The notes below the pieces were generated by a model, which was given only the letters and a program-made list of their open reading frames with translations, was not told the origin of the DNA and ran no database searches. Positions 1,342-15,776 of a stretch of 22,992 nucleotides of DNA are shown piece by piece. This DNA is from a virus: positions 1-22,992 of IMG/VR virus record IMGVR_UViG_3300017753_000119; one strand, given 5' to 3'. Within the stretch, counting starts at the first letter, position 1. Each line of letters opens with the position of its first letter. Position numbers and translations under genes: made by a program.

Positions 1342-1359
1342 ATATGTATGATTGTATAA
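1341..1359 (+). promoter_or_regulatory. Putative phage promoter, ATATGTAT motif, copy 1
   Basis: ATATGTAT at 1342-1349 directly follows a terminator T tract and lies 36 bases before the ATG at 1386. Aligning the five copies (1342, 1667, 5708, 10368, 14284) gives roughly ATATGTATNWTWGANNAA. The promoter role is inferred from position and recurrence only. Confidence 0.5.
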
Positions 1360-1666: not shown

Positions 1667-1684
1667 ATATGTATAATAGACAAA
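1666..1684 (+). promoter_or_regulatory. Putative phage promoter, ATATGTAT motif, copy 2
   Basis: ATATGTAT at 1667-1674 begins directly after the T tract of a terminator and continues as AATAGAC. It lies 30 bases before the phoH start codon. A gene that follows a strong terminator needs a promoter, and this is the only recurring motif in the gap. Confidence 0.5.
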
Positions 1685-2408: not shown

Positions 2409-3563
2409 ATGGCATCTATTACTATCTGGCCTGGCTCTGCTTCATTTTCTAATACAACAAACCCAACACCTTTTGGGTTTTACGATACTGATACAGATTT
2501 TACATCTTCTGCTGACCAAGTAGCAACATGGTGCGCACAAAGGTTAGGATACCCCATAGTAGATATCGAACTACAAGCGGTTAATTTCTTCACAGCGTTT
2601 GAAGAGGCTGTAACTACATATGCACAATATGTTTATCAATATAAAATAATTGAAAACATGGGATCCCTTGAAGGATCCACTACAGGTAGTAATTTAAATG
2701 ACCAATATATCCAACCTAATTTAGGTAATACAATTGCTATTGCTGAACAATATGGAACTGAAGCAGGAACGGGTGGAAGTATAGAGTATAAAAAAGGCAA
2801 TATAAGCATATCACAGGGTCAACAAGAATATTCACTCACAGATCTATGGACAAATATAAGTGAGTCGGGTAACCCCATAGAAATTAAAAAAATATACCAC
2901 TATGCCCCACCAGCTATTTCAAGATATTTTGATCCTTATGCTGGTACAGGCACAGGTATTCAATCTTTAATGGAAACATTTGGGTTTGGTAATTACTCTC
3001 CTGGTGTAAACTTTATGTTAATGCCTACTTATTATGATGTTTTAAAAGTACAAGCAATCGAATTAAATGATCAAATTCGTAAATCAGCATATAGTTTTGA
3101 ATTAATTAGTAATAGTAAATTAAAGCTATTTCCTATACCTAATAGGAATGAAACTTTATATTTCGATTATGTTGTTAAAGAAGACAGAAATAATCCTGTA
3201 AGAAATACTAGTAAAGGATTAGTTACTAATATATCTAATGTACCATATTCCAATATAAGTTATACTACTATTAATACCCCAGGAAGACAATGGATATTTA
3301 GGTATACACTAGCCCTTTCTAAAGAAATGCTTTCTAGTATTAGAGGTAAATATTCATCAGTTCCTATTCCAGGTTCTGAAATTACCACCAATGCCGGGGA
3401 ATTAAGGAGTGAAGCAGCTAATGAAAAAACTGCACTTATTGATGAATTAAAAGCAATGCTTGAAGAATCATCAAGAGTTAAGTATATGGAAAGAGATGCC
3501 CAAATAGCACAAAATGCACAAGATACTTTTACAAAAGTTCCTTATCCAATATATATCTACTAA
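2409..3563 (+). CDS. gp13: Neck / head-completion protein, gp13-like
   Basis: The 384-residue protein has an N-terminal segment FGFYDTDTDFTSSADQVATW (23-42), then an acidic/aromatic helix region IELQAVNFFTAFEEAV (53-68). Near the C-terminus is IRGKYSSVPIPGSEIT (311-326), followed by a helical region rich in Glu and Lys. The IRGKYS-IPIPG stretch matches my recollection of the neck protein gp13 in marine T4-like phages, and a gp14-like and a gp15-like gene lie just downstream, as in T4 (13-14-15). In that family gp13 joins gp14 to close the filled head and bind the tail. T4 gp13 is about 309 residues, so this one is longer. The stop codon overlaps the next start (TAATG), suggesting translational coupling. 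The gp13 label rests partly on gene order. Confidence 0.68.
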   Translation: MASITIWPGSASFSNTTNPTPFGFYDTDTDFTSSADQVATWCAQRLGYPIVDIELQAVNFFTAFEEAVTTYAQYVYQYKIIENMGSLEGSTTGSNLNDQYIQPNLGNTIAIAEQYGTEAGTGGSIEYKKGNISISQGQQEYSLTDLWTNISESGNPIEIKKIYHYAPPAISRYFDPYAGTGTGIQSLMETFGFGNYSPGVNFMLMPTYYDVLKVQAIELNDQIRKSAYSFELISNSKLKLFPIPNRNETLYFDYVVKEDRNNPVRNTSKGLVTNISNVPYSNISYTTINTPGRQWIFRYTLALSKEMLSSIRGKYSSVPIPGSEITTNAGELRSEAANEKTALIDELKAMLEESSRVKYMERDAQIAQNAQDTFTKVPYPIYIY

Positions 3564-3919
3564 TGATTAAACTAAAAAACATATTAGCTGAAGCCCTTAA
3601 CATATATTCAGTAGATATCATAATAGTATCTGATAAAGATGCTAATATTACAGATGTATTTGATGGAATGAGAGCTATTAGACGTATTACTATTGTAAGG
3701 AGTAATACTTCAGATGAACGTGAAGCTAAAAACCGCAGTAGAACTGATGGTAAAGAAGTTCACACAGCAACAATTAAATTTGTAGCAGGTCAAGATCCTA
3801 AACAAGATTTAGAATTTTTTAAAACCACTATGTTACAAAGTGATAAAGGAGACCCTAACAAGAGAATCCCAGGTTTACGCCATGTAGTGTTTAAACCCGA
3901 ATCTTTAACTAAATTATAA
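3563..3919 (+). CDS. Small conserved-type protein of unknown function (118 aa)
   Basis: I do not recognise a named family. The sequence begins MIKLKNILAEAL, a short amphipathic leader seen on many small proteins of marine T4-like phages. It continues with alternating strand and helix segments: VDIIIVSD, VFDGMRAIRRITIVR, TATIKFVAG, QDLEFFKTTML, and RHVVFKPE. This beta-alpha-beta/beta-alpha-beta order would suit a ferredoxin-like fold. It starts within the stop codon of the gp13-like gene and ends in the same way with the gp14-like gene (TAATG at both joints), so it is made with the neck proteins and may be a minor neck component or an assembly factor. That role is inferred from context only. 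Confidence 0.8.
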   Translation: MIKLKNILAEALNIYSVDIIIVSDKDANITDVFDGMRAIRRITIVRSNTSDEREAKNRSRTDGKEVHTATIKFVAGQDPKQDLEFFKTTMLQSDKGDPNKRIPGLRHVVFKPESLTKL

Positions 3920-4476
3920 TGCCATTATTTGGAGGAAATAGAGATATATCCCTATTCAGAACAATGAATAAAGAACTGATTAATGATATTATTCAGACTG
4001 AAATAGGCTTTTATAAATTTGTATTACAAGATTCTGATTCTAATATATATGGTGAATCAGAAAATAAAGTATATTATGAACCTATGTTGATTCCTTCTTT
4101 AATTACTAGAGAAGACCAAACATGGAATGAAACTGATTTTGGTCCTGACTCTACTCAACAAATGACATTTGCTTTTTTAAGAGCAACTTTAGTAGAAAAA
4201 AATTTAGTACCTGAAATTGGTGATATAGTATTATTTAATAATGATTATTTTGAATTTAATAATATTATAGAAAACCAATTCTTTTCAGGCAAAAATCCAG
4301 ATTACTCAATGAATAAAGACACAGATAATTTTGGTGTTTCATTATCTATTATATGTAAATCTTCTAAAGTAAGAACAGAACAACTTAAAACAGTTCCATT
4401 AAAATCAGGAATATACCCATCTACAGTTAAAACTGAACAAACTATTGCTAATCCTAGGAATCAACTATATAGCTAA
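3919..4476 (+). CDS. gp14: Neck protein, gp14-like
   Basis: The 185-residue protein opens with a short leader, then SLFRTMNKELINDIIQTEI (about 11-29). The gp14 hallmarks follow: NIYGESENKVYYEPMLIPSLI (42-62), a TDFGPDSTQQMTFAF segment (71-85), LVPEIGDIVLFNNDYFEFNN (95-114) and NQFFSGKNPDY (118-128). In T4-like phages gp14 acts with gp13 at the head-tail junction, making the filled head competent to join the tail. T4 gp14 is about 256 residues; shorter forms are usual in marine relatives. Both ends overlap neighbours by one base (TAATG), so it belongs to a coupled neck operon with the gp13- and gp15-like genes. Confidence 0.8.
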   Translation: MPLFGGNRDISLFRTMNKELINDIIQTEIGFYKFVLQDSDSNIYGESENKVYYEPMLIPSLITREDQTWNETDFGPDSTQQMTFAFLRATLVEKNLVPEIGDIVLFNNDYFEFNNIIENQFFSGKNPDYSMNKDTDNFGVSLSIICKSSKVRTEQLKTVPLKSGIYPSTVKTEQTIANPRNQLYS

Positions 4477-5708
4477 TGAATAATAGAATAACAAAGAAGC
4501 CTAAAGTTAATAGACAATATCAATTATCTCAACAAGCTATAGTTGATAATGCAATAGACCAAGGGGGATCACCTGAAATCCCAGCACTTGCTTTGGGGCC
4601 AGACATTAGACCTAACCAAAATAGAGGCAACATAGTTAGTAAAAACGATTCAAAAACTAATTATAACTTTAATTTAGGATTAGAATCTATAGATGAGTCT
4701 ATATTTTATTATTTTGAAAACATTATAAAACCCTCAGTTTTATCAAATGGGGATTTAATAGATGTACCCGTTATTTACGGTTCAGGAGAAAGATGGAAAT
4801 TAGCTCAAAAAGATGGATTTTATAGAGATAAAAATGGTAAAATTCAAACACCCCTTGTTATGCTTAAAAGGGAAAGTATTGAAAAACGTAGAGATTTAGG
4901 AAACAAATTAGATGCTAATTCTCCCCAATTATATATTACCCACCAAGAAAAATATACTAGAAAAAATTCATATGATAGGTTTACATTATTAAATAATAGA
5001 ATCCCTAAAAAAGAATTTACAGCTACGGTAGTACCTGATTACATTAATTTAACATATAATGGTATTATATGGACAGATTATATTTCCCAACTTAATAAAA
5101 TCATTGAAGCAGTAAACTATGCTTCTGATTCATATTGGGGGGATCCCGAAAAATTTAAATTTATGGCTATGATAGATTCATTTAATAATATTAATGAATT
5201 ATCAAATGATGATGGAAGAATAGTTAGAGCTAATTTTAGTTTAAAACTTCAAGGGTATATTGTTCCTGATAATGTTCAGAAAAAACTAAAAGAACAAAAC
5301 ACTAGATATTTTAGTAAAGCTCAAATTATTTTAAACCAGTCTACAACAATTATTGATGAACCTGGAAAGAAACTCCAATCTGTAAAATCCACAGGTGGAG
5401 GTGGGGGCAGTATTACTAAAACAACTATTAATAATACTAATGTAGGGCAAGATGATGATTGGACAACAACATCTGAACTTTTAGTTAATGGAAACAACAG
5501 AAACGTCCAAATTAATAATGCTTATTTAACAGTTGATATAGGAAATACTAAAACTGAAGATATTTTTATAATTAAAAAAAATAATGAAGCCCAACTTACA
5601 GTAAATAATAACGGAATTTTATCTTTAAAAAACTTTGATAGCTTTCCTGATGTAGTTCCTGAAGGAGGATTTTTAATAAAAAATAATGAGTTCTATGTAG
5701 GAGTTTGA
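4476..5708 (+). CDS. gp15: Tail completion / sheath-stabiliser, gp15-like, with fibre-like C-terminal extension
   Basis: Residues about 65-267 resemble T4 gp15: DESIFYYFENIIKPSVLSNG (73-92), IDVPVIYGSGERWK (95-108), FTATVVPDYINLTYNG (181-196), an EKFKFMAMIDSF segment (225-236), and the closing RIVRANFSLKLQGYIVPD (248-265). T4 gp15 is about 272 residues and caps the tail at its head-proximal end. This protein is 410 residues. After the core it has a charged helix (268-283), a Gly-rich linker at 307-312 and a C-terminal domain at about 330-410. That domain has fibre-like strands (AQLTVNNNGILSLKNF) and the end PEGGFLIKNNEFYVGV, a pattern common at the ends of phage appendage proteins. The extension suggests an added surface domain at the neck. 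The gene starts inside the stop codon of the gp14-like gene. Confidence 0.78.
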   Translation: MNNRITKKPKVNRQYQLSQQAIVDNAIDQGGSPEIPALALGPDIRPNQNRGNIVSKNDSKTNYNFNLGLESIDESIFYYFENIIKPSVLSNGDLIDVPVIYGSGERWKLAQKDGFYRDKNGKIQTPLVMLKRESIEKRRDLGNKLDANSPQLYITHQEKYTRKNSYDRFTLLNNRIPKKEFTATVVPDYINLTYNGIIWTDYISQLNKIIEAVNYASDSYWGDPEKFKFMAMIDSFNNINELSNDDGRIVRANFSLKLQGYIVPDNVQKKLKEQNTRYFSKAQIILNQSTTIIDEPGKKLQSVKSTGGGGGSITKTTINNTNVGQDDDWTTTSELLVNGNNRNVQINNAYLTVDIGNTKTEDIFIIKKNNEAQLTVNNNGILSLKNFDSFPDVVPEGGFLIKNNEFYVGV

Positions 5709-5725
5709 TATGTATTATAGAATAA
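5708..5725 (+). promoter_or_regulatory. Putative phage promoter, ATATGTAT motif, copy 3
   Basis: ATATGTAT at 5708-5715 overlaps the last base of the gp15-like stop codon and continues as TATAGAATAA, close to the copy at 1667. It lies 21 bases before the ATG at 5737. It argues that the small gene starts at 5737 and not at the in-frame ATG at 5710, which lies inside the motif. Confidence 0.45.
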
Positions 5726-5736
5726 AACTCCTAGTT

Positions 5737-5973
5737 ATGTCTACATTTAAAGAAATAAAAAATAAACTAAAATTTACTCAAAACGATCACTTCCAGGATA
5801 TTCCACCTTCACCAAAGGTTAAAGAAAAAACAACAGATCAAATATTTGAAATAGAAGAAGCACGATATATGTTAAATTTAATAGCAAATAGTGATTTTAA
5901 AGGACGTGATATACAAGTTGTATACGATATAGCTTTTAAGCTTCAAAATATTTTACAAACTATAAACGATTAA
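5737..5973 (+). CDS. Small helical protein, paralogue of the product at 10399 (78 aa)
   Basis: I choose the ATG at 5737 (MSTFKEIK) over the in-frame ATG at 5710: the extra nine residues (starting MYYRIKLLV) overlap a promoter-like motif and look non-coding. Residues 1-35 are polar and basic. Residues 38-75 form a predicted helical pair around IANSDFKGRDIQVVYDIAFK (48-67). The product of the gene at 10399 has the same pattern (MGKDAHVVSSLLKKFEDKL), so the two are likely paralogues. Similar short helical proteins with a KG-D--VV signature occur in other phages, but I know no function. It is followed after five bases by an NWKK-type fibre gene, the same neighbour as its paralogue. A fibre assembly or regulatory role is only a suggestion. 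Confidence 0.75.
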   Translation: MSTFKEIKNKLKFTQNDHFQDIPPSPKVKEKTTDQIFEIEEARYMLNLIANSDFKGRDIQVVYDIAFKLQNILQTIND

Positions 5974-5978
5974 GATAA

Positions 5979-8426
5979 ATGGCAAATTGGAAAAAAGTAT
6001 TAGTCTCAGGCTCAGCAATTGAAGTCAGAAACATAACTGCTAGTGGCCTTCCCGAAAGTACTGCAGGCTCAGATAAAATAGTAGTAATTAATACTACAAC
6101 AGGTCATTTATCATTTACATCTTCAGCTGCGGGTGGTGGTAGTGGAGTATTTGTAGACCAAGGGGATTTTGCTAATACCGGGGATGGCAATGAAAAAAGT
6201 ATCTACATAACAGGATCTGTTTTACAATCCTCTCCGGATACAGCCCCTACTGAAATAAGAGGAGCCTCTTCTACAAATACAAATTATGCCCTAATTGTTA
6301 GCCAATCTGCATATTTTAGTAATCATAATGTTGGCCACCCAAATAATTTAGCCTGGCAATCTAATTTAGCAGGATCTATATTTAACAACTATGATGCTAA
6401 TACTGATGTAGCAGAAATTTTAAGGACATTTGCAGGACTTATTAGTTCTTCTAATAGTGATTTAGTTGCTTCTCCTACTGCTTTAGCTACTAAATATACG
6501 GGATATAATAGTGAAGCTGAGTCACTACCTAGTGATAGTAGTACTTTTGATAATGTATTCCTTCCTGTAGGGTTTACTGAAGAAAATGCCGCTTACTTAA
6601 ATTTAAAAGGATTTAATGGGGGTGCGGGTACAAGTATGTTTAGTGAAGTAGCTAGTTCAAATAGACGCACAGAAGTTACAACCGCTAATTATGGGGTTAG
6701 AATAGATTTATTAGGGGGTGGTGTTGCTGATACTGAATTTGATGCTGGATCTAATAGTAATAACTTTACTGTATTTGCTAAAGTAACTCAAAGTTTTAGT
6801 GATACACAAAGTGAAAATGATCCGAGTCCTACTAGTAATACATTTAATACTCAATCTAGATTTGAATTTACATTAACCCCAGGAAACGCTGGTGTAGTAA
6901 TACAGGGAGGACCTAGTAATACTATTGATTTAGAAACAATAGCAACGGGTAACCCAACAGTTATTCCACCCCAGTTTAAAAAAGCTAATGGTGCTAACAT
7001 ACCTTTACAAACATCTTTAAGACATAAAGCTTCTGGTGAAGATTTCACAGATATTTCCTCAAGTGGATACTATAAATACCAAGGTATATTAGCAGGTGTA
7101 GCCACAGGTAGTACCCAAACAGAAGCTGAAGTTATTTTTGGTAGTTTACAAAGCCCTGGATCACAAACTAATGTAAATACATCTATATTCCAGTCCCCAC
7201 TACAAATTAGTGATATAACGGATACTGCTGCTACCTTTGTAACTAAATTTGCTTCTTCAAGTTTTACTTCTAGAAGTTTATCAGGAGCCCCATATTTAAA
7301 TGCAGCTACTTATACAACTGAAGTTACCGCGAGTAATGTATTCAAACCTTTATATAGAGCTAACGCTACTATAGGTAGTGCGGCTGTTAGCAGTACTAGT
7401 TTAACGTTTGCTGGTGATACTACCCAAACCGCTACTATTCAATCTGATGGTGACGTTGGTACTGCTAATACAATTTATAATGGAGAGGCAGTAAGATCAA
7501 TTAATGATAACCCAGGTATAGATGATACAGTTAGATTAGCTGAACAATATACTTTTGGTGCTAGTGATGATAATGAAACTAATATGGGTGAAGGGGCTTT
7601 CCCAGGTAGTCAGGATACTACTTTCACATACACAGCTACTATAAAAGACTTTGCTAATAATGCTGAAACTGATGCTAGTAATATAAATTACCACACAGCA
7701 GGAGCATTTGATCAACCTTTAGCTAGTGGTTCTTTAGCATACTTTATTTCAGATGATGGTGGTGCTGGTGGTGCTACAGCTACTAGCGAAACTTTTAAAG
7801 GTGAAGTTTATAGAAGAACTATTAGTGATTCAACTACTTTAACAACAGCGTTTAATTCCAGTTCAAGATTAACATTAGGAGATGGTGGTGACTTACAAGT
7901 TAAACCTGGTTTCCTCGTTAACCCAGAACATAATGGTACTGATGTAAGTAGTGCAGGTGCCGGTTATTGGTACCCTACAGATAATTTTAACCAGGCCCAT
8001 TACAAGTGGTTCTTAAGAGAAGTTGACACTGGAGCAAGTAGTAATAAAAGTACTCTAACATTAAACTTTGCCCCAGATAGCAGCGGTGATTTTGTTACTT
8101 GGGATACTACTACTAATAACAAAATTTCAATCGGTGTTATTTTCCAAGCACAAAACTCTGATATATTTGATGCTGTTAAAGGTAATGGTACTTATGGAGG
8201 TAGTTTAAATGCACAATCAACTGGAAACAATAACCCCTTCACTGATAACGTAGATGTTATAGGTGATTTTTCATCATTTACAAATTCATCAGGAACATTA
8301 ACTTTAGGATTAAATAACTCTATAGGACAAACTATTAACGCTTCAAACTCTAAAATTTGGGTATTAATTAGATATAAAGGAGCTCCCGCTTCTACATTAA
8401 CAGGATTTACAGTATCCACATCGTAA
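5979..8426 (+). CDS. Tail fibre-like structural protein, NWKK class (815 aa)
   Basis: The N-terminus MANWKKVLVSGSAIEVRNIT is shared with the gene at 10643 (MPNWKKVIVSGS) and is probably an attachment segment. Residues about 14-50 lead into a Gly/Ser linker (AAGGGSG). The rest is a very long region rich in Ser, Thr, Asn, Asp and Gly, with few Cys, Met or Lys and no signal peptide or membrane segment, as expected for an extended beta-structured appendage. Aromatic-rich patches such as GAGYWYPTDNFNQAHYKWFL (about residue 660-680) suggest a globular C-terminal domain, and the protein ends in a strand, IWVLIRYKGAP. I see no S74 or HPT...LEGPEHG domain. The role as a tail fibre or other appendage is inferred from composition, context and the shared N-terminus. 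Confidence 0.8.
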   Translation: MANWKKVLVSGSAIEVRNITASGLPESTAGSDKIVVINTTTGHLSFTSSAAGGGSGVFVDQGDFANTGDGNEKSIYITGSVLQSSPDTAPTEIRGASSTNTNYALIVSQSAYFSNHNVGHPNNLAWQSNLAGSIFNNYDANTDVAEILRTFAGLISSSNSDLVASPTALATKYTGYNSEAESLPSDSSTFDNVFLPVGFTEENAAYLNLKGFNGGAGTSMFSEVASSNRRTEVTTANYGVRIDLLGGGVADTEFDAGSNSNNFTVFAKVTQSFSDTQSENDPSPTSNTFNTQSRFEFTLTPGNAGVVIQGGPSNTIDLETIATGNPTVIPPQFKKANGANIPLQTSLRHKASGEDFTDISSSGYYKYQGILAGVATGSTQTEAEVIFGSLQSPGSQTNVNTSIFQSPLQISDITDTAATFVTKFASSSFTSRSLSGAPYLNAATYTTEVTASNVFKPLYRANATIGSAAVSSTSLTFAGDTTQTATIQSDGDVGTANTIYNGEAVRSINDNPGIDDTVRLAEQYTFGASDDNETNMGEGAFPGSQDTTFTYTATIKDFANNAETDASNINYHTAGAFDQPLASGSLAYFISDDGGAGGATATSETFKGEVYRRTISDSTTLTTAFNSSSRLTLGDGGDLQVKPGFLVNPEHNGTDVSSAGAGYWYPTDNFNQAHYKWFLREVDTGASSNKSTLTLNFAPDSSGDFVTWDTTTNNKISIGVIFQAQNSDIFDAVKGNGTYGGSLNAQSTGNNNPFTDNVDVIGDFSSFTNSSGTLTLGLNNSIGQTINASNSKIWVLIRYKGAPASTLTGFTVSTS

Positions 8427-8443
8427 TACAGAAACTATAAAAC

Positions 8444-10315
8444 ATGGCATATAACTCACCCAATAGATCAGAAAGATTATTACAAGGTAGAAGATTTACT
8501 ACTGATGGTCTTACGTTAACTCAAGAAGCATTTACGGATGTATTTGATTTAGGGGCTAATGAAATATTTACAGATGATGGGTTAATCCCTACGGGGAGTA
8601 GCCAACTACCATATAGTGGTTCTAGTCAAGATGGATTAATAATTTCAGCCAGTTTAGTAAATCCTTCCACATATACAGAGGGAAGTGAAGATGATCTGCA
8701 AATTGTAAAATATCACTATAGAAAAAAATTAAAGGGTGCCGCAGATGCTACAAGAGAAATTTATTATTTTACTACTGATGATCCTGATACCCATGATGAT
8801 TATGTAACTTCTGACCAAATTATAGAAGCGGACCAACAAACTAATTTTGTATCTCCTAAATATATAATACCTGGACACTCTTCTAGAAATGCTGAATCTA
8901 TAACCCCTGGTTATAAGATAGCAATTTCTTATGGTAATGATGAAAACAACGTTACTGCAGCTACAGATGACCAATTTGTATTTGATTATAAAACAGGTGT
9001 TCTTACTTGGGTAGGTACTCCTCCTCATGATACAAATGACTTTGTATTTGCTACTACTTACCAATATGTTGGTAGAACATTAAGAAGCCAAATAGATGAT
9101 GGATCTATTGGGGGTAGTAATTTTACAGCAGCGGGAATATCGGGATCATTAGGTAATAATGCTACTTTAATTCGTAGCCTAACAGCAGCGGGAATATCAG
9201 GTTCATTTACTGCAACTAGTGCTTCTATAGCATCAGATATAGCAGCAAATTTAGCTTCCCAACTTACTATTGCTGGTCAAGACGATTCATTCACAGTAGG
9301 ACAAGGGGGTACTATTAATTTTGTTTCTGGATCCGCAGGGATAACTGTTTTAAGTGATAGTACTGATACAATTACAATTGGTGCTAGCACTGATAATGTA
9401 ACACTCAATCAAATTACTTCATCTATTGTAAGTGCAAGTGGTGGAATTACAGGTGATGTAACAGGTGATTTAACAGGTACTGCTACTGAAATAAATTTAA
9501 GTGCAGTAGCTGGTTCATCTACCGAATTACCTATTATATTATCAAAAGCAGAAACTCCTAATAATACTGTAGGATTTACTCAAACAGGTACCGGTATTAA
9601 ATTTACTTATAATCCTGGTGCAGGAGAAATTAAAATAGGTTCTTCTAACCTAGAAACCACTTATGGTTTTGCTGAAATCCAAGGTGGTAGTAATCTTCCT
9701 CTTGACAGATTTAAAATTAATACGGACGGATCGGCTATTACAAAAACTGAAATAGGTGCTTCTACTAGTGATGTTGTTTTTGGAGATGATGTGTATATTA
9801 GTGGTTCATTAAATGCAAGCACTGATTTAAGTACATTCGCTTTATTTAATACTAATACTACAACAATTAATTTTGGTGGTGCTGCTACAACTCTTAATAT
9901 AGGAAACGCTGCTGGTACAGTTAATATTGCAGGTTCAGCAAGTATTGCGGGTGATTTAACTGTACAAGGTACTGTTACTTCAATAGAAACTGAAAATCTA
10001 AATGTATCTGACCAATTTATCTTATTAGCTAGTGGGTCTACAGGTACTATAGATGGTGGTATTATTGTTCAATCAGGTAGTAATGGTGTAGGAACAGCAT
10101 TATATTTTGATGCAAATGCTAATAGATGGGCAGTTAATCCGGCAAATACAGTTAATTGGAATGATACCTCATTAACACCTAAACAATATGTTGTTTCAGT
10201 ATCTGCCTCTGCAGCAGCACCTCCATCAACACCTTTAGATTTTGGTGATAGTAGTGAATATTATGGTATGATGCACGTTAATACTGATAATGGAGAAATT
10301 TATATATATTCTTAA
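8444..10315 (+). CDS. Fibre-like structural protein, MAYN class (623 aa)
   Basis: Residues 1-215 form a distinct, more globular domain: it opens MAYNSPNRSERLLQGRRFTT, contains a mixed segment KYHYRKKLKGAADATREIYY (about 89-108), and ends near TYQYVGRTLRSQI. A 19-residue tandem repeat with TAAGISGS follows. Then comes a fibre region with the module GDLTVQGTVTSIETENLNVS at about 502-521. The same module (GDLTVSGTTTFIDTENLNVS) is in the gene at 14328 and in many cyanophage-type fibres. The C-terminal end YYGMMHVNTDNGEIYIYS is a common appendage ending. The N-terminal domain probably anchors to the tail or baseplate. Spacing to the previous gene is 17 bases, and a terminator follows. Confidence 0.8.
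   Translation: MAYNSPNRSERLLQGRRFTTDGLTLTQEAFTDVFDLGANEIFTDDGLIPTGSSQLPYSGSSQDGLIISASLVNPSTYTEGSEDDLQIVKYHYRKKLKGAADATREIYYFTTDDPDTHDDYVTSDQIIEADQQTNFVSPKYIIPGHSSRNAESITPGYKIAISYGNDENNVTAATDDQFVFDYKTGVLTWVGTPPHDTNDFVFATTYQYVGRTLRSQIDDGSIGGSNFTAAGISGSLGNNATLIRSLTAAGISGSFTATSASIASDIAANLASQLTIAGQDDSFTVGQGGTINFVSGSAGITVLSDSTDTITIGASTDNVTLNQITSSIVSASGGITGDVTGDLTGTATEINLSAVAGSSTELPIILSKAETPNNTVGFTQTGTGIKFTYNPGAGEIKIGSSNLETTYGFAEIQGGSNLPLDRFKINTDGSAITKTEIGASTSDVVFGDDVYISGSLNASTDLSTFALFNTNTTTINFGGAATTLNIGNAAGTVNIAGSASIAGDLTVQGTVTSIETENLNVSDQFILLASGSTGTIDGGIIVQSGSNGVGTALYFDANANRWAVNPANTVNWNDTSLTPKQYVVSVSASAAAPPSTPLDFGDSSEYYGMMHVNTDNGEIYIYS
9125..9207 (+). repeat. 57-base tandem repeat inside the fibre gene
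   Basis: Bases 9125-9150 and 9182-9207 match at 24 of 26 positions (ACAGCAGCGGGAATATC...). The 57-base offset encodes two 19-residue units, each holding TAAGISGS. It marks the start of the fibrous part of the protein. Confidence 0.75.
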
Positions 10316-10337
10316 GAACCATTTTAATATAAAAATT

Positions 10338-10364
10338 AAGCACTCCTATGGGGTGCTTTTTTTT
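10338..10364 (+). terminator. Rho-independent terminator after fibre gene 8444
   Basis: A 9-bp stem (AAGCACTCC with GGGGTGCTT, one G-T pair) closes a TAT loop and ends in eight T. It ends the transcription unit that started at the motif at 5708. Confidence 0.9.
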
Positions 10365-10366
10365 AT

Positions 10367-10385
10367 TATATGTATATATAACAAT
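10367..10385 (+). promoter_or_regulatory. Putative phage promoter, ATATGTAT motif, copy 4
   Basis: ATATGTAT at 10368-10375 follows the terminator T tract by three bases and lies 23 bases before the ATG at 10399. It is the third case of a terminator followed at once by this octamer. Confidence 0.5.
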
Positions 10386-10398
10386 TAAAATAATAGTT

Positions 10399-10554
10399 AT
10401 GGTACAAGTTAGATTAGAACCACAAGAATTACAATTTGCAATTGCCGCAATAAACCAAACCTCAATTATGGGAAAAGATGCCCACGTAGTCTCTTCATTA
10501 TTAAAAAAATTTGAAGATAAGTTAGAGTCTATTCAAGAAGTTAAAAAACCTTAA
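10399..10554 (+). CDS. Small helical protein, paralogue of the product at 5737 (51 aa)
   Basis: The start is set at 10399 (MVQVRLEPQELQF). The frame is open further upstream to an ATG at 10348, but those codons lie in the terminator hairpin and promoter-like motif. Residues 6-45 are predicted helical and align with residues 38-77 of the product at 5737, sharing the pattern E....I......GKD..VV....K...L. The longer paralogue has an extra basic N-terminal arm that is missing here. No known function. It again precedes an NWKK-type fibre gene, this time with an 88-base gap. Confidence 0.72.
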   Translation: MVQVRLEPQELQFAIAAINQTSIMGKDAHVVSSLLKKFEDKLESIQEVKKP

Positions 10555-10664
10555 TAGGTATCATAGAACACTATTGTTGGCTCTTAAATGTAGGGGAAGT
10601 AGGCGAATTGTTCGTATCTAACCGCGATAGAATTAGTATTGAATGCCAAATTGGAAAAAAGTAA
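10545..10664 (+). other. Open frame without start codon in the gap before the 10643 fibre gene; possible gene remnant
   Basis: The 88-base gap at 10555-10642 has more G and C than the other gaps. Frame 10545-10664 is open for 39 codons and reads protein-like: EHYCWLLNVGEVGELFVSNR, then DRISIECQIGKK and a stop within the next gene. It has no ATG, GTG or TTG in a sensible place. It could be a decayed gene fragment, part of an untranslated leader, or chance. I cannot identify it. Confidence 0.25.
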
Positions 10665-12685
10665 TCGTATCAGGGTCTGATGCGATTTTAAGCAGTATTA
10701 CGTCAAGTGCTGGGATATCATCCAGTGGGGATATTTATGCTCCCAATTTTATAGGTACTGCTTCAATAGCATCTGCAGTTACAGTTACCCCTCTAGGTTC
10801 TCCAGGATTTTTTGATGTATTATTTACTAATGGTAGTAATCTTTTCCTTACAGATGATAATGCTAATGATTTTGCTTATAATCCTTCTACTAATACCTTA
10901 TTAGTAGATAATCTTGTAGGTACTGCTTCATTAGCCACTACATCATCGTATGTAATATCTTCTAATGTATATGGCCCCCATGGATTTAATAGTATTTTAT
11001 CTTCATCACATGCTATAAATGCATCACATTCTATTAGCGCATCTTATGCTGAAAACGGCATAGATATATTAGGTAATGTTAATAATAGAGTATTCACAGC
11101 AACGGGTAATAATACCCTCCAAGGTGAAAGCAGTTTAACATTTGATGGTAGTACATTAAGTACAGCTAAACTTACCTTAAATGCTAATAATCCCTTAATA
11201 GTCTCATCACAAGCTGGCCAAGCACTTACAGTAAATGATGATGATCTTAATTTAATTAAAATAGGAGATATTGGTGGTGGTCAAAATGAAACTCTTTTTA
11301 CTGTAAATGATAGTGCAACAAAAATTACTTTCTATACAAATGGTATAAATAGTGAATTTAATCCTACAGGACTTAAAACTACAGGAAATATTACCTCTTC
11401 AGGTAATATAAGTGCAAGTGGAGACCTTTATGGACGTGATTTAGATGTTAGTCGCGATGTAAAACTAGGAAGAAATATTGTTGTTCCTATTAACGGTAAA
11501 ATTGGTATTCCTAGTGGTATAGACAGTAATGATGATTATATATTATTTGGTAATGATTCTGCCCGAAATATAAGCCTTAAATTCGATAATGGTGATTTAT
11601 TTAAAGTTGACTTTACTGAGGAATTAATATCACTTTTATCGCCAACTAAACATGGTACAATTTCATCCGATACCCACCAATTTACGGGTAGTGTTGATAT
11701 AAAAGGTAACACTAATATTGATGGTAATTTAATAATTGATGGCGACATAACCGCCCAACAATATATTATTAATTCCACAGTTACTAACGTAACAATGTCA
11801 TTTAGTAGTGGTTCCACCATATTCGGTGACTCAACAGATGACACGCATTTATTTACAGGTAGTCTAGATATAACAGGTAGTACTAATATAATTGGTCCAT
11901 TATCTCTTCCTGGATTTAATGATGTATCTGCCTCTTTAGCAAATTTAACTGCAGGGGGAGGTGCTGATAATTTAGGTGACCACACAGCTACTCAAGATTT
12001 AGACATGGCAGGATTTAATATTTCTGCTGGTTTAAATATAACAGCTTCAGGTAATATAAGTGCAAGTGGAAACCTTAATGCTGACCATTTAATTTTAAAC
12101 CCTAATACTACAACTACAGGTTCTAGTGATACTGATGCCGCAATTGATATTTCATTAGGTGAAGAAAGTTATAAAAGTGGTGTAATTAAAAGAGTATTTG
12201 ATTTTAGAGAAAACATTCCTTCAGCAGATACAATCAATATTAATGAACAAGTTATTGCAGATATAGGGGAATTTACAAAAGGAACATTTGAATTTTCTTT
12301 AGAATTAAAAGGAGTACGACACCCAGACTCAACATCAATTGTAGTAGAAGGCACTGGTAGTATACACCAATCTATTAATTTAAGTGGTCAGACAACTAAT
12401 ATATATGCTATTGGCAGCGCTATAGATGTAGTATATAGTGAAAGTGGTTTTATTGGAGACAGTGGCGTCGACGTATTAGCTGAAGCTATGTTAGATATAG
12501 GGACTAGTTTTGCCCCTAATCCCATAGGGAGTGGTCTTTCTGGGGCCGTTAATGCAACTCAACCACCCTTTTTAAAAGTAGATTCTAGTAAATTAAAATT
12601 TAATTTTGGTCAACCAGATAATGTAAATGTTCTTATTAGTGGATCTTTAGCGACTGTTTATTTAAATTATCAACTTTATAAATAA
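10643..12685 (+). CDS. Tail fibre-like structural protein, NWKK class (680 aa)
   Basis: The N-terminus MPNWKKVIVSGSDAILSSIT matches the gene at 5979. An extended region rich in Ser, Thr, Asn and Gly follows, with two copies of the ITASGNISASG-type module (encoded at 11390 and 12038), repeated FTGS-DI-G strands at about 350-420, and SLPGFNDVSASLA then GGGADNLGDHTA near 425-447. Residues about 505-680 form a different, probably globular end domain with VIKRVFDFRENIPSADTINI and FEFSLELKGVRHPD, ending YLNYQLYK. That domain is a candidate receptor-binding tip, but I do not recognise its family. The start codon directly follows an in-frame TGA, so no longer form is possible. Confidence 0.8.
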   Translation: MPNWKKVIVSGSDAILSSITSSAGISSSGDIYAPNFIGTASIASAVTVTPLGSPGFFDVLFTNGSNLFLTDDNANDFAYNPSTNTLLVDNLVGTASLATTSSYVISSNVYGPHGFNSILSSSHAINASHSISASYAENGIDILGNVNNRVFTATGNNTLQGESSLTFDGSTLSTAKLTLNANNPLIVSSQAGQALTVNDDDLNLIKIGDIGGGQNETLFTVNDSATKITFYTNGINSEFNPTGLKTTGNITSSGNISASGDLYGRDLDVSRDVKLGRNIVVPINGKIGIPSGIDSNDDYILFGNDSARNISLKFDNGDLFKVDFTEELISLLSPTKHGTISSDTHQFTGSVDIKGNTNIDGNLIIDGDITAQQYIINSTVTNVTMSFSSGSTIFGDSTDDTHLFTGSLDITGSTNIIGPLSLPGFNDVSASLANLTAGGGADNLGDHTATQDLDMAGFNISAGLNITASGNISASGNLNADHLILNPNTTTTGSSDTDAAIDISLGEESYKSGVIKRVFDFRENIPSADTININEQVIADIGEFTKGTFEFSLELKGVRHPDSTSIVVEGTGSIHQSINLSGQTTNIYAIGSAIDVVYSESGFIGDSGVDVLAEAMLDIGTSFAPNPIGSGLSGAVNATQPPFLKVDSSKLKFNFGQPDNVNVLISGSLATVYLNYQLYK

Positions 12686-12690
12686 TAATA

Positions 12691-14013
12691 ATGCCTAGTA
12701 TAAGAATACAACCCAATATTAGCTTTTATAGTTCAAGCGGATTAACTTTTAATCCTAATATTGATTCTATAATTAGCGGATCCGGGTATAGACTTGAGGC
12801 ATTTGATACGGGTAGTAATTCACCCCTCATTATATATAAGAAAAACTCGGGATCAATTAATCCTGAATATTTACTTAACATAAGTGGGTCTTCTCTTGAA
12901 CCTAGAATTGGATTTGGTTTCGGACCTACCGAAAAGTTTAATAATTCTTTTGAAATTAAATCCTCAAAAAACAGTGCTGCAGGTACTGAATTATCTCTTA
13001 AAAGTAGTCGCCTTACTTCAGGTGGAGATGTAGGGGATACAGCAGGTAAACTTAATTTTGTAATAGCTAGTGGTAGCTTTATTAAAGGAGATATTTCAGG
13101 ATCTATAGCAGATATAAAAAGTGTCGTAACAAGTATAGATAATGAAGGTGCTACCGGCGATTTAGTTTTTAGCACTGCTCAATCCACTAAAACTGCCCCT
13201 GTTGAAACTTTTAGAATCAGTAGAAATGGTAGTACAATTCAATCTTCATTACAAGTAGAAGGTTCTAATTTAACAGTTGATAATAACTTAATTAGTAACG
13301 GAAATAACCAGATGGGGTTAATAACCGCTAGTGGTGATATAAGCTCAAGTGGTAATATTTATGGTGCTAATTTAATAGGTAATAATTTAGGAACAACATT
13401 TTTTCCTAGTTCTGAAGGAAATGTTAGTAATGAAATTAGTTTTTTCAATAATAGTATAGATGATGATTTACTTAGCGCTATAGGTTTAGAATATTATGAA
13501 GAAACCTCATCCGCAGATTTTAAATTCTTTAGACAAGGAGAAGGAGGTTACACTGATAACTCAGCTTTAGAATTAACAGGCTCATTATTAGTTAAAGGAA
13601 ATACAACATTAAATGGTTCTTTAACGATTACAGGTTCTCAACTAATAACCGACGACATTACTTCAGACGGCACAATCCGTGCAAGGGTAAAGTCATTCGA
13701 TATACCGCACCCTACTCGCAAGAATAAGCGCCTAGTTTATGGTGCACTCGAGGGACCTGAACACGGTATTTATTGCCGAGGCGAATCTAAAGAATTAAAA
13801 GTTCTTCTTCCCCCAGAGTGGAGAGCAATGGTAGATAAAAAAGGAATTACTGTTCAAATTACCCCTATAGGTAATTGGCAACCCTTATATTTTGAAAAAT
13901 TACACAGTAACTGGTTATATTTTGGGTGTGGAGATAATAGAGAAAATGTTCATTTCTACTGGGAAATAAAAGGTGAACGAACAGATGTTCCTTCACTAGA
14001 AACGGTCCAATAA
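12691..14013 (+). CDS. Fibre-like protein with HPT...LEGPEHG C-terminal domain (440 aa)
   Basis: Residues 70-177 are an N-terminal module shared with the products at 17498 and 19795: PRIGFGFGP, GKLNFVIASGSF, ISGSIADI and a GATGDLVFSTAQSTKT stretch. A fibre part follows with one ITASGDISSSG copy (211-221). Residues 333-440 are a conserved C-terminal domain: VKSFDIPHPTRKNKRLVYGA, LEGPEHGIYCRG (353-364), LPPEWRAMVDKKGITVQITP (373-392), and YWEIKGERTDVP (423-434). This domain is common at the ends of tail fibres and other phage structural proteins of marine T4-like phages; its exact activity is unclear to me. It has invariant-looking His, Glu and Arg residues, so a processing or chaperone function comparable to S74 is conceivable but unproven. 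The start lies five bases after the previous stop. Confidence 0.85.
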   Translation: MPSIRIQPNISFYSSSGLTFNPNIDSIISGSGYRLEAFDTGSNSPLIIYKKNSGSINPEYLLNISGSSLEPRIGFGFGPTEKFNNSFEIKSSKNSAAGTELSLKSSRLTSGGDVGDTAGKLNFVIASGSFIKGDISGSIADIKSVVTSIDNEGATGDLVFSTAQSTKTAPVETFRISRNGSTIQSSLQVEGSNLTVDNNLISNGNNQMGLITASGDISSSGNIYGANLIGNNLGTTFFPSSEGNVSNEISFFNNSIDDDLLSAIGLEYYEETSSADFKFFRQGEGGYTDNSALELTGSLLVKGNTTLNGSLTITGSQLITDDITSDGTIRARVKSFDIPHPTRKNKRLVYGALEGPEHGIYCRGESKELKVLLPPEWRAMVDKKGITVQITPIGNWQPLYFEKLHSNWLYFGCGDNRENVHFYWEIKGERTDVPSLETVQ

Positions 14014-14032: not shown

Positions 14033-14284
14033 TATAATAGAGATATAATAATAGAACCCCTAAGCGGATCCATAATATTCAGTGGATCTGCGGGGGCAAC
14101 CTTTTCTGAAATCGTTGTAGACGATAATGCTAATATTGATTTACAATTAAAAGATGGCAGCACGTTTACAGTTACTGGTTCAGTAAATATCTCAGGCTCA
14201 TCAGACATTTCTTTAAATGTTTCTGGTACTTTATCTACAGATGATATAATTTTAAGGGGGACACTTGATTTAGGAACTTTTTAA
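14027..14284 (+). CDS. Short fibre-like protein, MAYN class, GTG start (85 aa)
   Basis: The frame starts with GTG (GTGGCATATAAT), giving MAYNRDIIIEPL. This resembles the opening of the product at 8444 (MAYNSPN), and there is no later start that would keep the fibre-like pattern. Residues 14-82 are short beta-strand repeats rich in Gly and Ser (SGSIIFSGSAGATF, FTVTGSVNISGSSDI, LSTDDIILRGTLDLGTF). The end LDLGTF resembles the end VIDGGTF of the next gene. It may be a short fibre, a connector, or a remnant of a longer fibre gene. Confidence 0.65.
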   Translation: MAYNRDIIIEPLSGSIIFSGSAGATFSEIVVDDNANIDLQLKDGSTFTVTGSVNISGSSDISLNVSGTLSTDDIILRGTLDLGTF

Positions 14285-14301
14285 TATGTATATTTGATTA
14301 A
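14284..14301 (+). promoter_or_regulatory. Putative phage promoter, ATATGTAT motif, copy 5; overlaps a Bacteroidota-type -7 element
   Basis: ATATGTAT at 14284-14291 begins at the stop codon of the 85-aa gene and lies 36 bases before the ATG at 14328. It overlaps TATATTTG (14289-14296), a full match to the Bacteroidota -7 consensus TAnnTTTG, with a TTG at 14265-14267, 21 bases upstream. The following leader is CA-rich (AACAACAACAACACAC) and probably unstructured. Confidence 0.45.
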
Positions 14302-15698: not shown

Positions 15699-15720
15699 AA
15701 GAAATATATACAACTTTTGT

Positions 15721-15748
15721 AAAGAGCCTTGGTTTTCCAAGGCTTTTT
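15721..15748 (+). terminator. Rho-independent terminator after fibre gene 14328
   Basis: A 12-bp stem (AAAGAGCCTTGG with CCAAGGCTTTTT, one G-T pair) closes a TTTT loop. It lies 22 bases after the stop codon. Confidence 0.92.
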
Positions 15749-15750
15749 AC

Positions 15751-15776
15751 TATTTATAATAGCAGTACATACTGCT
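15751..15776 (+). promoter_or_regulatory. Possible variant promoter motif with adjoining inverted repeat
   Basis: TATTTATAATAG at 15751-15762 differs at one base from TATGTATAATAG at 1668-1679 and lies directly after a terminator, like three of the five main copies. A perfect 6-bp inverted repeat, AGCAGT ACAT ACTGCT, follows at 15761-15776 and could be an operator or a 5' leader hairpin. The ATG is at 15804. Confidence 0.35.

Follow-up and report, generated by a model that had tools for sequence, protein, structure and literature searches.

Two small helical proteins and a structured leader RNA at a fibre locus of a phage with T4-type genes

Fibres determine the host range of phages and are the most variable parts of the virion; to our knowledge, little is known beyond T4 of how their supply is controlled. 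T4 late promoters are of the gp55 type, with the consensus TATAAATA. Among proteins that serve fibres, T4 gp57A (79 residues) is needed for the folding of the trimeric fibres, is not part of the virion and contains no aromatics, cysteine or proline (PMC3004832), and Pam3 gp25 has 162 residues in a beta-sandwich and a helical domain (PMC9608196). Here we describe a fibre locus in the IMG/VR virus record IMGVR_UViG_3300017753_000119 (positions 1 to 22,992; this whole stretch of 22,992 bases is called the window), in which two small genes, A and B, and a structured leader RNA accompany two fibre genes, fibre1 and fibre2. Library matches show T4-type genes in the window (major head protein, 2.6e-55; PhoH, 4e-61; head-tail adaptor, 2e-11), and several of its proteins are fibre-like, two of them with a Peptidase_S74 chaperone domain. 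We read the locus, with slightly better than even confidence, as a late-expressed fibre module of a T4-related phage in which A and B are assembly factors or adaptors and the RNA is a cis-acting leader of fibre2. The initial annotation had seen a repeated cassette of promoter, small gene and fibre gene. Its observation is confirmed and its interpretation partly supported: the small genes and the fibres are real, but the promoter is a general one and the layout belongs to one clade. The leader RNA, absent from that annotation, is the most valuable part of the result. The locus comprises:

4476..5708, + strand: gene X, a 410-residue structural-type protein ending EGGFLIKNNEFYVGV; directly before fibre1 in relatives
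5708..5715, + strand: promoter ATATGTAT before gene A; at the equivalent position in relatives L001-L008
5737..5973, + strand: gene A, a 78-residue small helical protein; predicted helices 33-50 and 56-77
5979..8426, + strand: fibre1, opening MANWKKVLVSGS and starting 5 bases past A
8444..10315, + strand: structural-type protein ending GMMHVNTDNGEIYIYS (phrog_6002, virion structural protein, 2.6e-08)
10338..10358, + strand: intrinsic-terminator-like hairpin with a T run, closing the preceding unit
10368..10375, + strand: promoter ATATGTAT before gene B
10399..10554, + strand: gene B, a 51-residue small helical protein homologous to A; predicted helices 8-20 and 25-48
10571..10630, + strand: structured leader RNA, a three-way junction (window copy 61.5 bits, E 2e-13)
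10643..12685, + strand: fibre2, opening MPNWKKVIVSGSDA; start codon 12 bases past stem P1 of the RNA

An NWKK fibre gene had been placed after each small gene. Both openings are present (MANWKKVLVSGS at 5979 and MPNWKKVIVSGS at 10643, sharing NWKKVIVSGS), but fibre2 does not follow B immediately; the 88 bases between them are non-coding and hold the structured RNA (10571-10630). Spacers before fibre2 measure 72-190 bases, and all 56 distinct ones contain the same element, by eye and by model matches. It has the consensus UAUURUWGGCC[hairpin]GGAAGURGGC[hairpin]GUAWCYAACCRYAAUA; in all, 157 distinct sequences were collected. In the window, P1 pairs 10571-10577 with 10624-10630 and 10579-10580 with 10622-10623, P2 pairs 10581-10583 with 10594-10596, J2/3 is the AAG at 10597-10599 and P3 pairs 10600-10607 with 10611-10620. 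For 31 sequences aligned without structure, RNAalifold and a structure drawn by hand gave a nearly identical three-way junction of 19 pairs. Standard pairs occupy 97.3% of the cells (83.8% when shuffled). The covariation score of 0.469 compares with 0.207 for shuffled alignments (0/500) and 0.06-0.13 (at most 0.127) with the partners slid, so compensatory pair changes exceed both kinds of control. Among the 31 sequences, columns 10:79 hold A-U in 16 and G-C in 15, the R42:Y73 pair is G-C in 19 and A-U in 12, and neither pair is ever broken. The fold was repeated on 74 and on 48 distinct sequences aligned to the model. Many unpaired bases (AAG, A, UAW) are invariant. Most sequences of alignment A9 show a correlation between unpaired base 71 (A or U) and the 42:73 pair (G-C or A-U), which may reflect a base triple or shared ancestry. 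Folded singly, the window RNA is ordinary (z 0.16), and the case for structure therefore rests on comparison. A search of Rfam 15 (4227 families) gave no match at or above the gathering threshold; extended to E up to 10 with two RNA copies, it gave nothing meaningful and no ribozyme similarity. The leader RNA is a previously undescribed, phage-specific structured family absent from Rfam.

A scan of IMG/VR with the RNA sequence alone returned at least 119 stretches, and 108 distinct copies were confirmed by the model, counting those of the window, of the cultured Flavobacterium phage immuto and of contig L298. Among the matches listed, a gene opening MP[NSA]W[KRN] comes directly after the RNA in 103 of the 108 distinct copies, and A and/or B lie within 700 bases in 98 of the 102 copies that have 300 bases or more upstream (A is further away in L138 and L229). 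Strand and position of the RNA within the 5′ leader of this one gene are fixed, the last stem usually ending 11-22 bases ahead of the fibre2 start codon, and a single strong copy is present in each of twelve long records. The fibre gene is 113-127 bases further down in L134, L206 and L223, and endonuclease-like open reading frames (ORFs) intervene between RNA and fibre2 in L187 and L124. At these sites (L187 2054-2130 and L124 12918-12990, coordinates on the reverse complement) the inserted ORF is GIY-YIG-like by a weak match in L187 and of the HNH type in L124, where it begins ATGCCAAATT, like fibre2. Two contigs, L189 (71 kb) and L226 (47 kb), have the RNA and fibre2, and no A or B was found on them. 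Of 105 stretches upstream of the RNA, 61 contain ATATTTAT, where 2.2 would be expected, and the motif mostly begins 6-14 bases ahead of the model start; TAT(T/G)TAT is found in 72 of 105. Since a late-type promoter thus stands just upstream of the first stem, the RNA would form the 5′ end of its own fibre2 transcript in most lineages. The window has no such promoter between B and the RNA, and its copy would therefore be carried on the transcript that starts before B. Occurrences of the RNA pattern in bacterial genomes were also considered: of 80 loci tested by covariance model one was real, and the rest, at 19.4 bits or less, were chance matches. The true copy (L298, 4293-4376 of NZIO01000021.1, titled as a Candidatus Pelagibacter metagenome-assembled genome) is accompanied by an MPNWKK gene, and the contig is probably that of a phage binned with the bacterium.

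Both small genes exist as ORFs where they had been annotated (5737-5973 and 10399-10554); their starts are backed, over the longer mechanical ORFs from 5710 and 10348, by relatives and by the excess of synonymous change given below. That the two proteins are related and helical, as first proposed, was borne out. The profile-profile alignment suggested as a check gave 95% probability and a score of 36.4 over 42 gapless columns, with maxima of 16.2 in 200 column shuffles and 8.9 for the reversed profile. An iterative search over all fetched loci collected 60 A and 42 B sequences, six of which were significant to both profiles, and in whole genomes the second match of the B profile is often A. 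AlphaFold2 predicts a helical hairpin for both, with a mean predicted local distance difference test (pLDDT) score of 95-97 over residues 41-70 of A and of 83 for B. The pattern KG-D--VV described for the pair holds for its G, D and VV, but the K is not shared (KGRDIQVV in A, MGKDAHVV in B), and the common core is xG.D..VV. Besides the helical hairpin, members of the family share a conserved Gly and Lys and lie next to a fibre gene of the NWKK or IYIYS-tail kind; the C-termini of many B proteins are rich in lysine. The nonsynonymous/synonymous ratio is 0.18-0.60 for A and B, an excess of synonymous change from which it follows that they code for protein. Both genes are conserved, are homologous to each other and evolve under purifying selection. 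No family library names either of them, and PHROGs, Pfam and NCBIfam gave weak scattered matches only for A, B and both fibres. The tblastn search of the window's A and B against GenBank phages gave no useful match because the cultured relatives are only distant, and a literature search found no description of the small proteins or of the leader RNA. In the profile search against PDB sequences the main matches of A were designed helical toroids, which we take to be spurious.

The fibres fall into two types, fibre1 opening M(A)xWKK and fibre2 opening MP(N/S)WKK. A scan of IMG/VR with the fibre opening alone found 496 places, of which 80 loci were kept; an A- and/or B-type ORF lies upstream on the same strand in all 78 with more than 100 bases upstream. 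Scans seeded with A and with B used narrower alignments, the broad ones being too diverse for a search of loci, and gave 80 loci each, with the RNA downstream in 76 of the 80 for either seed; the exceptions are contig ends and one lineage. Homologues are thus found beside NWKK-type fibre genes whether the seed is the fibre, A or B, or the RNA, which was the second check suggested. Because profile similarity and adjacency both held, the proposed link of the small protein to the NWKK fibre class is well supported as a genetic association, and its mechanism is inferred. In records that are complete or long, the fibre locus holds the only strong A site. The commonest order is X-fibre1-A-B-RNA-fibre2; in immuto, genes 215 (MATWKK), 216 (A), 217 (B) and 218 (MPSWKK) follow one another, and many phages have A only. 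Since this order prevails elsewhere, the unit of small gene and fibre seen in the window is the arrangement of one clade. The IYIYS tail is on a separate gene (8444) in that clade and forms the C-terminus of fibre1 itself in most relatives, and in the A-seeded scan the protein before A has an IYIYS-type tail at no fewer than 42 of 43 distinct loci. In Microcystis phage Mel-JY01, A (43 residues) comes after a protein ending GEIYVDSSNGDVWIYA and no NWKK fibre follows. The tree of A is weakly resolved; placing A before fibre1 needs two changes, and the ancestral order is not settled by it. In L229, where genes have been inserted between A and the RNA, A stays by fibre1. The insert (2561-6363) is a run of lectin-like genes, with Laminin_G_3 confirmed in the last, and is possibly a receptor-binding array. 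In L006, a 76-residue truncated MANWKKVIISGS ORF (3789-4019) stands before a full MANWKK fibre gene and looks like the remnant of a duplicated fibre1.

From the predicted helical hairpins, A and B would be small, non-enzymatic assembly factors or adaptors of the NWKK fibres, A tied to fibre1 and the proteins with IYIYS-type tails and B to fibre2. The fixed strand, position and partner gene of the RNA point to a role in cis on the fibre2 mRNA, most likely in setting translation or stability late in infection; the fold would leave the fibre2 start codon in an open A/T-rich stretch. Small proteins and RNA would then serve the same fibre supply and yet be separable parts. Several observations weigh against this picture. 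The window's own clade has A ahead of fibre1 and not after it. One lineage (L395, L399 and L402, of 171, 95 and 56 kb) keeps A, B and fibre2 and has lost the RNA; its fibre2 start has changed to MSSWKR, after a leader of about 30 bases, and the best score anywhere in the 171-kb record, 17.9 bits, is not a convincing RNA. In three phages the RNA is more than 100 bases from the start codon, so that it would not act directly on ribosome entry in every phage. Foldseek searches of the PDB with both AlphaFold2 models gave no informative match, our search found no expression, binding or virion proteome data and no proteome of immuto, and the contigs are mutually related, so that the counts given above are not numbers of independent events.

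Other readings of the same parts have to be set against the assembly-factor reading. A and B may be minor virion components, adaptors joining fibre1, fibre2 and the baseplate, instead of chaperones absent from the particle. This is possible, if doubtful: they are tightly linked to two consecutive fibre genes at one site per genome, but in the immuto annotation they are hypothetical while their neighbours are called structural (the basis of these labels was not found). It seems unlikely to us that B, or A, represses or activates fibre2 by binding the leader RNA and so couples its translation to assembly. Among the matches listed, 98 of 102 distinct loci encode one or the other directly upstream of the RNA, the lysine-rich C-termini of many B proteins would suit such a role, and small helical hairpins such as Rop can bind RNA. 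However, the L395 lineage has lost the RNA and retains A and B, the converse is seen on the long contigs of L189 and L226, and where fibre1 and the RNA have parted A goes with fibre1. As these natural losses separate the parts, it is improbable that A or B acts only through the RNA. A further and equally unlikely proposal is that the leader is a new class of RNA switch, whose three-way junction either processes its own transcript or responds to the state of assembly of the fibre, with free small protein or fibre subunit as examples of the signal. If this were true, production of fibre2 would keep pace with its assembly factors throughout a large group of T4-related phages.

Simple duplication of a block that then diverged, its adjacency being inertia of gene order only, was an alternative in the initial annotation. 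The homology of A and B and the NWKKVIVSGS at both fibre starts agree with it, and for the same reasons an old duplication of the small gene and fibre unit may have occurred. As a full account it is decidedly unlikely, for the genes stay together despite changes of order among lineages and both A and B are under purifying selection. Trimming of the fibre2 message by the element, as a self-cleaving ribozyme or as a processing signal, would fit the compact junction and its many invariant unpaired bases; we consider it very unlikely, given the Rfam result for two copies at E up to 10 and the lack of a candidate cleavage site. It is extremely improbable that the element works at the DNA level, perhaps as a site of recombination or homing that promotes fibre exchange: endonuclease-like ORFs just after the element in L187 and L124 and the wide variation of fibre bodies among relatives speak for it, but compensatory changes in the stems and a fixed orientation to fibre2 are expected of RNA.

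The promoter motif ends 21 bases before the start of A and 23 before that of B, matching the 21-23 bases first reported. As a feature of a cassette it fails: the window holds five copies of ATATGTAT, three of them before phoH and two other genes.

1342..1349, + strand: promoter ATATGTAT before gene 1386
1667..1674, + strand: promoter ATATGTAT before phoH (1705)
14284..14291, + strand: promoter ATATGTAT before gene 14328

All five lie on the + strand, the coding strand, ahead of late genes as T4-type late promoters do, and end 21-36 bases ahead of a start codon; the chance of this placement is about 4e-10 (by position). As every copy precedes a gene, phoH included, ATATGTAT is best taken as the general late-type promoter of the phage and not as part of a special cassette. 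We take the motif to resemble T4 late promoters. The copies at 1667 and 10368 are preceded by terminator-like hairpins on the same strand, and the one at 1342 by a hairpin that is GC-rich and has a T run. Other gaps of the window, before 2409 and 14027, contain the related ATATTTAT, and TATTTATA stands after a terminator and before gene 15804. There, at 15719-15758, a strong terminator-like hairpin is followed directly by TATTTATAAT; this suggests that 15719-15758, 10338-10375 and 1640-1674 are terminator-promoter pairs separating late units. Past fibre2, comparison by eye of window 12691-14013 with L114 22204-23967 shows a likeness between the C-terminal domain of gene 12691 (HPTRKNK..YGALEGPEHGIY) and the end of fibre2 in immuto (HPTKEGK..YGVLEGPEHSVY); it seems that tip domains have moved between fibre genes.

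The fibre locus retains the pair of small proteins and the folded RNA as the fibre bodies change, and the leader RNA is a candidate control element of phage fibre production that is now open to testing. As the whole module is present in the cultured phage immuto, its function is directly testable. Compared with the known systems, A and B share size and proposed role with T4 gp57A. They differ from it in that the window proteins have Phe and Pro (A also Tyr) and that the two form a pair whose genes lie beside the fibre genes or between them; no gp57A family or other Pfam fibre-chaperone model was listed at E up to 0.5 for the 44 A and 29 B members searched. Like the chaperones Tfa, gp38 and Pam3 gp25, they are encoded beside a fibre gene and would be dedicated to one fibre; unlike these, they have about 45-100 residues and are predicted to be all-helical. 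The putative promoter shares with T4 late promoters a short, A/T-rich, −10-type element before late structural genes, but reads TAT(G/T)TAT(A). Like the structured cis-regulatory leader RNAs of bacteria and phages, the RNA has a fold that is conserved and lies in the 5′ leader of a single gene, near the start codon; it stands apart from them as a phage-specific family outside Rfam 15 that has one partner gene and no known ligand.

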